Source of the DNA: Limnohabitans sp. Rim8
GTDB taxonomy: Bacteria; Pseudomonadota; Gammaproteobacteria; Burkholderiales; Burkholderiaceae_C
Direction: 5' to 3'
Assembly (NCBI RefSeq): GCF_945901735.1
Contig: NZ_CAMDLM010000011.1
Coordinates: forward strand, 1-64,000
Length of the DNA: 64,000 nucleotides
This document shows positions 8,162 through 58,138 of this stretch, in pieces. Below the pieces are notes generated by a model. It saw only the letters and a program-made list of their open reading frames with translations. It did no database searches and had not been told where the DNA came from. Position numbers and translations under genes: made by a program. Within the stretch, counting starts at the first letter, position 1; every line of letters begins with the position of its first letter.

Positions 8162-8229
8162 GCATGGCGAGCCAAGCGCGGCAACCTGTCACCCAATCCG
8201 TCATTGCGAGCGAAGCGCGGCAATCCATA
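8162..8229. repeat. Dispersed repeat, GTCATTGCGAGCG-type, one good and one decayed copy
   Basis: The motif at 8200-8228 (GTCATTGCGAGCGAAGCG then GGCAATCCAT) belongs to a repeat class common in betaproteobacterial genomes. A degraded head of the same motif lies at 8162-8184. A full palindromic version of the class lies at 58077-58138 in this window. It sits between the CoA ligase and RidA genes. Confidence 0.7.
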
Positions 8230-29181: not shown

Positions 29182-29563
29182 GTCTGAATTATTGATCCGG
29201 CACGCAGAGGTTTGAAAGTTTGGCAGCTTCATCTCGTAGGTCGGTGGCTTTAGCCCCGACATGGCGGGCTTCGGCGTAGGCTGCGTGTCGAGGGTAAAGC
29301 CACCGACCTACATCTGGGGCTTGGAGCTCGTTGAGTCCACTGGGCCAGTGAGGGCGTGGCTTGTTTTCAGCCGCCAACGATGGCCCATGGCCATAACCAG
29401 CGCGCTTGCATTCGTGCTTAAAAGTCATGGGTCTATGAAGATCCGGCGGGTTTATCAGCGTCTAAATTTAGAATAAAGTGTTGGGTCTGATGGGCTACAT
29501 CGCTGCTTGTTGGCGTTGGGCACAGGCCACCCCCATTATTTTGACTTGACCCCAGAGGTTTTC
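29182..29563. other. Intergenic region between HMG-CoA lyase and malate synthase G
   Basis: This 382-bp gap holds a palindromic repeat (29238-29309) and then an AT-rich segment with a perfect 12-bp palindrome TCTAAATTTAGA at 29461-29472, which overlaps a possible -10 (TAGAAT, 29469-29474) for the malate synthase gene. No gene is visible. Confidence 0.6.
29238..29309. repeat. Palindromic repeat, AGGTCGG family, copy 2
   Basis: Two 23-bp arms (29238-29260 and 29287-29309) pair at 21 of 23 positions around a 26-bp core. The left arm starts AGGTCGGTGGCTTTA and ends GCCCCGAC, then ATGG, identical to copy 3 at 35534. Confidence 0.85.
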
Positions 29564-34477: not shown

Positions 34478-34498
34478 TGCTGCGCTGAGCTCCTTTAT

Positions 34499-34579
34499 AG
34501 GAGCGCACCCCGTGCGTGATGGTTTTTGGGCGTGTGCCACGCCCAATCGCCCACAGGGTTGGGCTCCCACAGGGTGTTT
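34499..34579. repeat. Short dispersed repeat, GGAGCGCACCCCGTGCG family, copy 2 with hairpins
   Basis: 34499-34522 repeats the motif of 17817-17840. It continues with a perfect 9-bp hairpin TTGGGCGTG / CACGCCCAA (34526-34546) and ends with GGGTTGGGCTCCCAC, which roughly inverts the opening GGAGCGCACCC. The element fills the gap between two convergent genes. Confidence 0.7.
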
Positions 34580-56966: not shown

Positions 56967-58073
56967 ATGACCCTTCTTGTCACCGGCGCAGCCGGATTCA
57001 TCGGCGCCAACTTTGTGCTGGACTGGCTGGCATCCAGTCAAGAGCCCATCATCAACCTCGACAAACTCACCTACGCGGGCAATCTGGAATCCTTGTCCAG
57101 CCTGCAAGGCGATGCGCGGCATGTCTTTGTGCAAGGCGACATCGGTGACGCCGAACTGGTCAACCGCTTGCTGGCCGAGCACCAACCCCGCGCTGTGCTC
57201 AACTTCGCCGCCGAAAGCCATGTGGACCGCTCCATCCATGGCCCGGGAGACTTCATCGAAACCAACATCGTGGGCACCTTCCGATTGCTGGAGTCGGTGC
57301 GCGGGTACTGGGGCACCCTACCCGTGGGTGCGGACTCTGACCCCGAACAAGCGCCTTCGCGGTCAGAGACCGCTCCCACGAGGAAGGACTTTCGGTTTTT
57401 GCACGTGTCCACCGACGAGGTCTACGGCTCACTGGCCAAAGACGACCCAGCCTTCAGTGAAACCCACCGCTACGAGCCCAACAGCCCCTACAGCGCGAGC
57501 AAGGCTGCCAGCGACCACCTGGTGCGCGCCTGGCACCACACCTATGGCCTGCCGGTGCTCACCACCAATTGCAGCAATAACTACGGCCCGTTCCATTTCC
57601 CTGAAAAACTCATCCCGCTGATGATCGTCAATGCGCTGGCGGGCAAGCCCTTGCCGGTGTACGGCGACGGCATGCAGATCCGCGACTGGCTCTACGTCAA
57701 GGACCACTGCAGTGCGATTCGCCGTGTGCTCGAGGCTGGGCGTCTGGGCGAGACCTACAACGTGGGCGGCTGGAACGAAAAGCCCAACATCGAGATTGTC
57801 AAAACGGTGTGCGCGCTGCTGGACGAGTTGCGCCCCCGAGCTGATGGCCAGCCCTATGCCCAGCAAATCAGCTACGTGACCGACCGCCCCGGCCACGACC
57901 GACGTTATGCGATTGATGCGCGCAAGCTCGAAGCCGAGTTGGGCTGGAAGCCGGCCGAGACCTTTGAAACCGGCATCCGCAAAACCGTGCAGTGGTATTT
58001 GGCCAACCCTCAATGGGTCAGCCATGTGCAAAGCGGTGCTTACCGAGACTGGGTGAACAAGCAGTACGCATGA
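56967..58073 (+). CDS. rfbB: dTDP-glucose 4,6-dehydratase with in-frame palindromic insert
   Basis: This 368-aa extended SDR converts dTDP-glucose to dTDP-4-keto-6-deoxyglucose for rhamnose. It has [11 protein letters not shown], the catalytic Thr-Asp-Glu in [17 protein letters not shown] and the NNYGP/FPEKLIP region. Between VRGYWG and [13 protein letters not shown], family members have a short loop, but here about 20 extra residues encoded by a near-perfect palindrome (57324-57379) are present. The reading frame is kept. rfbD follows; rfbA and rfbC are not here. Confidence 0.95.
57324..57379. repeat. Palindromic element inside rfbB coding sequence
   Basis: Arms 57324-57347 and 57356-57379 are complementary at 21 of 24 positions with an 8-nt loop. 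The outer arms read GTGGGTGCGGACTCTGACC and GGTCAGAGACCGCTCCCAC. It is read in frame and encodes about 19 residues ([19 protein letters not shown]) with no stop. It resembles mobile palindromic elements that insert within genes, as known in Rickettsia. Confidence 0.85.
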
Positions 58074-58076
58074 TGC

Positions 58077-58138
58077 GTCATGGCGAGCGCAGTGCGGCCA
58101 TCCATGGATCGCCACCTCGCTTCGCTCCTCGCGATGAC
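58077..58138. repeat. Palindromic dispersed repeat between rfbB and rfbD
   Basis: GTCATGGCGAGCG at the left and CTCGCGATGAC at the right form the outer arms of a long imperfect palindrome centred on CATCCATGGATCG. It is a complete version of the class seen at 8162-8229. It starts 4 bp after the rfbB stop and ends 14 bp before the rfbD start. Confidence 0.8.

Follow-up and report, generated by a model that had tools for sequence, protein, structure and literature searches.

A resident REPIN translated within RmlB of Limnohabitans, and REP inserts in the same loop across the genus

In the gene rmlB of Limnohabitans sp. Rim8, a palindrome of 56 bp is translated in frame. Judged by its sequence, it is a REPIN, i.e. 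two head-to-head REPs of GTAG type belonging to a family dispersed in the genome of this strain (G000; 3.67 Mb, 66 contigs). Within the genus, the same RmlB loop is occupied by inserts that represent at least five kinds and two REP superfamilies (GTAG and CGTC). The best reading of the data is that resident REPs repeatedly enter a small number of permissive protein sites, where one REP may perhaps overwrite another. The unexpected part is this recurrence in one loop, not the intragenic REP as such. The window analysed here is a stretch of 64,000 nucleotides containing rmlB.

The palindrome and its place in RmlB

The gene rmlB (rfbB; 56967-58073, forward strand) encodes a dTDP-glucose 4,6-dehydratase of 368 amino acids (TIGR01181, 494 bits; cut-off 365). 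At 57324-57379 on the forward strand, exactly where the initial annotation had placed the palindrome, it contains in frame GTGGGTGCGGACTCTGACCCCGAA / CAAGCGCC / TTCGCGGTCAGAGACCGCTCCCAC (arm / spacer / arm). The left arm (57324-57347, forward strand) is of GTAG type with a GTGG tag and reads VGADSDPE; a forward-strand spacer of 8 nt (57348-57355) separates it from the right arm (57356-57379), whose minus-strand sequence is GTGGGAGCGGTCTCTGACCGCGAA and which reads SRSETAPT in the rmlB frame. The arms, 24 nt each, are complementary at 21 of 24 positions, the left differing from the right by three substitutions. A GTAG-type REP is described as a hairpin measuring about 20-40 nt, preceded on its 5' side, at a distance of 0-2 nt, by GTAG or GTGG (PMC6006769, PMC3733652). 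The tagged right arm GTGGGAGCGGTCTCTGACCGCGA agrees with this description, and the arrangement of two inverted REPs with a short spacer (24 + 8 + 24 nt) is that of a REPIN. As single-stranded DNA, with both arms folded together, the palindrome has a folding energy of -21 kcal/mol (z -6.3), which none of 200 shuffles equalled.

A chance palindrome or an assembly artefact is an explanation to which we give practically no credence; no point in its favour was found. When the window was shuffled 20 times under a first-order Markov model, the best arm match was 17-19 and none reached 21 of 24, a value which occurs at two places only in the real window, at 57324 and at 29240. Dispersed copies in the genome and a perfect copy in the assembly of G028 likewise refute it. 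A repeat finder that requires an exact seed of 9 bases did not detect the pair at 57324-57379, because mismatches interrupt the arms.

The palindrome spans 19 codons, and residues 120-138 are thus a protein segment translated from a palindromic element, as had been proposed. The initial annotation had estimated the addition at about 19 residues; this is the number of codons touched, whereas the net gain relative to insert-free kin is 16 residues (loop of 43 versus 27). Homologues of RmlB in the PDB are 1g1a and 1bxk, and Foldseek found 1keu (TM 0.91). We used an AlphaFold2 model computed from 54 sequences (mean pLDDT 90.5, pTM 0.90); a run on 26 sequences (pLDDT 61.9) was set aside. In this model, the insert is predicted to form a loop that follows helix 94-117 and precedes strand 143-149; residues 127-133 have a pLDDT below 50. 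In the aligned structures 1g1a and 1bxk, 16 residues are absent at the insert; the gap is partly filled in 8du1. The edge of the RmlB Rossmann fold that carries the insert is, we assume, opposite the active site. The insert had been described as lying just before the catalytic STDEVYG strand: in sequence it does precede the start of this strand (143-149 in the model), but the catalytic end presumably comes after the strand start, following Rossmann topology.

The REP family and its transposase in the genome

A search of the genome yielded 36 matches at E ≤ 10, one of them rmlB itself; the REP pattern matched at 35 places and its reversed form at 5. Of 20 stretches examined around other matches, 15 contain half-REPs, 28 in total and often as inverted pairs, with the consensus GT[A/G]GGAGCGGTCTCTGACCGCGA (GTAG type). 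The family is dispersed, and most of its copies lie outside genes; among the 36 matches, there is no further copy on the contig of rmlB. Six of the 28 half-REPs lie in reading frames of known proteins, namely three in the MutL linker (L133), one in RecD (L134; second arm degenerate), and two in the N-terminus of UreF (L125), the latter being in frame only if translation begins at the ATG upstream of them. The UreF gene (L125, 1435-2304) apparently contains an in-frame REPIN in its N-terminal tail, which reads VGAVSDRD...SRSETAPT in the same frames as in rmlB.

This genome has two genes for Y1 transposases. One is a RAYT gene (L010, 669-1274, minus strand; NF047646, 141 bits over residues 66-196; cut-off 80), which is flanked on both sides by REPs of the same family, at 554-573, 594-617, 645-665, and 1244-1264. 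The last of these falls inside the start of the mechanically defined ORF, and the true start of the gene is probably later. The second gene (L009, on the contig of rmlB) has an NF047646 score of 79.3, just below the cut-off of 80.

For RAYTs and IS200/IS605 transposases, hairpins in single-stranded DNA are described as substrates (PMC6006769); the RAYT of this genome would act in this manner and would very likely mobilise its own GTAG-type REPs. We consider it probable that the resident REPIN was put in frame into rmlB by the RAYT and is tolerated in a surface loop, against a background of recurrent supply and recombination. Such a RAYT-driven insertion would have occurred in an ancestor of G000 and its near kin, and selection on RmlB would have retained the frame. 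The REPIN would be nearly neutral and would persist, since the surface loop which it lengthens is presumably away from the active site and RmlB would still be functional. The dispersal of the same repeat, the REP-flanked RAYT, and the low pLDDT of the loop count in favour of this explanation. It counts against it that, by eye, near kin with and without the insert show no clear direct duplication of the target, the mark of a MITE with target-site duplication; their flanks, however, have diverged.

The window contains further REPs. Directly after the rmlB stop codon, at 58077-58138, there is a palindrome pair of TGCGAG type (CGTC superfamily; two substitutions each), the kind found in frame in rmlB of G027, G115, G103, and G123; an exact copy of a TGCGAG-type REP (GTCATTGCGAGCGAAGCGCGGCAATCCA) is located at 8200-8227. 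The second inverted pair with 21 of 24 complementary positions (29240-29307, GTCGGTGGCTTTA type) has GTAG at both outer ends, lies between divergent ORFs, and looks like another REP family. Two neighbouring GTAG-type REPs at 34497-34519 and 34547-34570 belong to other families; one is exact to the pattern, the other has two substitutions.

REP inserts across the genus and their possible origin

In the genus, rmlB was found in 78 of 90 genomes at E ≤ 1e-150, giving 83 copies. A comparison of these relatives, based on match length and reading, gave a loop insert of at least 8 residues in 22 copies (21 of the 78 genomes) and none in the other 61. Loop DNA sequences were read in every one of the 22 carriers and in 54 of the 61 insert-free copies; G107, G110, G116, G117, G126, G127, and G129 were scored as empty from match length alone. 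The insert-free loops read have exactly 27 residues, the single exception in the genus being G023 (28). An old, generally longer RmlB loop is ruled out, because nearly all copies read have 27 residues. The counter-example named by the initial annotation, the same loop encoded by unrelated, non-palindromic DNA in a distant RmlB, was not found; longer loops hold REP-type palindromes except L112 (+4), L176 (+5), and L034 (+1), in which none was seen. Among 80 named loci, three have REP-type inserts (L041, which equals the G105 copy, L059, and L073). G028 contains a perfect REPIN at the same place; the nearest kin, G007 and G026, belong to the same well-supported clade but lack an insert.

Kind A is the GGTCTC REPIN of G000, G028, G109, and G113. 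Kind B consists of single GTAG REPs whose cores vary (G017, G112, G058, G022, G125, G034, G032, G021, G056 in decayed form, G105 twice, and L073). The CGTC inserts, whose pattern does not cover every family, are a CCCCGCG REP in G036 (C1), a TCGGG REP in G051 and G101 (C2), and a TGCGAG dimer in G027, G115, G103, and G123 (C3); L059, a related single REP, was grouped with C3 for the tree. In G123 (L338), two TGCGAG dimers stand in tandem and in frame, and the loop has 72 residues as compared to 27. G101 possesses two rmlB copies: one (L326) carries the CGTC REP and one TAA inside the match, the other is insert-free and has no stop.

Comparison of loci indicates that the MutL linker and a site in RecD follow the same recurrence pattern as the RmlB loop. 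For mutL, present in 60 genomes, 51 loci were tried, of which 5 were not readable by our rule; a GTAG REP (at most one substitution) of one of several families occurred in 18 of the 46 linkers read, on both strands and in more than one frame. One of the 18 (L253) lacks a palindromic core and is probably due to chance. For recD, the best 30 loci among 56 genomes with a match were read: nine have a REP at the same place, on the forward strand and in the frame VGA..SR, with differing cores; four look by eye like decayed remnants (L348, L352, L353, L362), and 17 are empty. The recD core of G013 is that of the GGCG family resident in G013, and recC of this genome also holds an in-frame REP. Surveys with the exact pattern, which miss some cases (the rmlB match of G034 was outside the fetched set), gave in-frame matches with family support in 1 of 18 (G032, recD), 1 of 43 (G013, recC), and 1 of 25 (G034, mutL). 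The GC3 rule by which coding stretches were recognised makes errors in both directions: mutL of the own genome escaped it, and it flagged L136, where the REP precedes the likely start. L309 of G013, flagged by this rule as an in-frame case, was dropped, as it had no Pfam match.

The junctions of the rmlB inserts were numbered from a fixed position behind the conserved tryptophan. The REPINs join at nt 12 in four of four cases and the single GTAG REPs at nt 20 or 23, on the minus strand and in phase 2, in 10 of 12; L018 joins at nt 56 behind a short repeat, and L014 is too decayed for placement. CGTC inserts join at nt 21 in phase 0 in seven of eight cases, the exception being L059. Within each superfamily, junction, strand, and phase are thus more constant than a pure tolerance filter predicts, which counts against our explanation. 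A target preference could produce this constancy: the RAYT would choose a sequence or hairpin at the rmlB, mutL, and recD sites that fixes orientation and phase, tolerance being secondary. The constant VGA..SR frame in recD would fit, as would the choice of targets by a tetranucleotide on one strand, which is described for IS200/IS605 transposases (PMC6006769). However, two superfamilies with three junction groups (nt 12, 20/23, and 21) in one loop would need several specificities, mutL has REPs on both strands and in more than one frame, and no common target motif was seen by eye. We regard such a preference as rather unlikely to be the main cause.

Because there are three junction groups and two superfamilies, three events are a safe lower bound, as deduced from the insert sequences. 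In an rmlB tree of 93 rows, computed without the loop, 20 state changes are needed for 24 insert rows, and 13 of these are forced by well-supported branches; shuffled labels required 21.6 changes on average, so the inserts are almost unclustered. An earlier tree (79 rows) gave 13 changes, 8 of them forced. The MutL tree, a poorly resolved proxy for the species from which G056 was left out (N-terminal part absent), required 11 changes for its 11 carriers, of which no more than 3 are forced; it supports the scatter only weakly. Not all changes on the tree are fresh insertions; recombination explains part of the scatter. By eye, the CGTC carriers have common flanking residues (LP-x-E .. TQ) without counterpart in their tree neighbours, which points to shared alleles or recombination.

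These common flanks and the common junction, found in CGTC carriers with different cores, would also suit one old insertion per superfamily that spread by recombination or descent and whose core was later overwritten in place by resident REPs (concerted evolution). The constant frame but differing cores in recD and the match of the core to a resident family in several hosts fit as well. On the other hand, insert-free loops have exactly 27 residues (except in G023), and losses would have to be exact or to proceed by allele replacement; moreover, we know of no mechanism for swapping cores of 24 nt. We therefore hold this scenario to be possible, though somewhat doubtful.

Inserts and resident REPs often match. 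At least 20 GTAG REPs were found in all 12 insert-bearing genomes versus 13 of 43 insert-free ones (Fisher p 1e-5; 55 genomes scored, 5 of 60 left out with unreadable rmlB loops). The C3 core, absent from 60 of the 90 genomes, has 51, 41, 39, and 30 copies in the carriers G027, G115, G103, and G123; at least 30 copies occur in four of four carriers versus 1 of 74 others, namely G025 (p 4e-6). Both p-values are optimistic, as the genomes are related. The GAGC cores that G034 and G032 carry in rmlB are those of the main family among the matches listed for these genomes. Several findings count against our explanation, however. The 13 REP-rich insert-free genomes (at least 20 GTAG REPs) and G025, with 112 C3 copies, have no rmlB insert. 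Agreement between insert and host is absent or weak in G051 (exact C2 core in rmlB alone, 1 of its 5 CGTC matches), in G017 (insert core absent among the matches listed of its 258 places), and for the B2 core (14 and 21 copies in the carriers G022 and G125 versus 415 in insert-free G102). For a stretch of 41 nt over the single REP of G034, folding is no more stable than that of shuffles (z +1.3).

Within the insert, G000 and G028 differ at 3 of 56 bases, and two of the three changed codons are non-synonymous; outside it, 63 of 1048 bases differ and 9 of 58 changed codons are non-synonymous. The changes in the insert are compatible with weak constraint, though too few for proof, and with these tiny numbers they are counted in favour of our explanation. 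It is very improbable that the REP peptides are useful, i.e. kept by positive selection as a selected loop or as an mRNA hairpin controlling translation: their recurrence in the same proteins and the in-frame tandem of dimers in G123 would agree with a function, but they are absent from 61 of 83 rmlB copies, the peptides differ between families, and the insert changes look unconstrained (n=3).

We thus prefer tolerated, recurrent entry of resident REPs, for which the empty nearest kin, the scattered tree, and the host matches also speak. Permissive places where frame-keeping REPs survive would be the loop of RmlB, the linker of MutL, and one site in RecD; REPs active in the host would supply these sites again and again, and homologous recombination would carry insert-bearing stretches between species, new insertion and recombination each contributing some share. 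As a tentative extension, the occupied sites in RmlB, MutL, and RecD (a loop, a linker, and a loop) may serve as docking sites, where junction, strand, and frame are kept and the core is overwritten by the REP family active in the host. If this were true, a protein segment would evolve in concert with the mobile repeats of its genome.

Relation to known systems

REPs are named for their extragenic position; here they are found as protein segments. At the same sites in three proteins, one genus shows a natural series that runs from empty sites through single and double to tandem inserts, with different REP families represented; this allows one to ask how selfish DNA becomes protein, whether target choice by the RAYT or a filter of selection decides, and whether the loop matters for the enzyme.

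The initial annotation had considered a betaproteobacterial host surprising; Thauera is a betaproteobacterium, too. This surprise did not hold up: according to the accessible part of PMC3733652, intragenic REPs of GTAG and CGTC type were reported in 2013, Thauera included, with a bias to DNA repair genes (recBCD, uvrA) and with different REPs at about the same recB site in two Xanthomonas species. DNA repair proteins recur among the REP hosts found here, as noticed in that paper. The likeness lies in REPs within reading frames, often of DNA repair genes; unlike there, as far as the accessible part goes, three sites are tracked here across a genus, in a comparison that includes empty sites and a tree and in which the cores partly match the host. 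Literature searches found nothing on REPs in rmlB or mutL, the closest precedent being PMC3733652, whose section on intragenic REPs, in the part accessible, names neither gene; its host-gene table may hold them. As far as these searches go, what is new is that inserts recur throughout the genus at three sites, which are empty in some genomes, and that their junctions are constant while their cores match the host in part.

To our knowledge, Rickettsia palindromic elements (RPEs) are confined to Rickettsiales. The likeness to RPEs that had been suggested extends to the mode of action, an in-frame palindrome that adds a protein segment; in length the element differs, with 56 bp compared to about 150 bp (PMC10969869). 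The two were set apart by description, not by sequence. The comparison is a fair analogy, and the rmlB element itself is, on the present evidence, a resident GTAG-type REPIN with a RAYT in the same genome. With GTAG REP/REPIN systems and their RAYT (TnpA_REP) it has in common the GT[AG]G tag, a hairpin of 23-24 nt, inverted pairs, dispersal, and a REP-flanked RAYT; unlike them, the rmlB copy is not intergenic but translated inside a protein domain.
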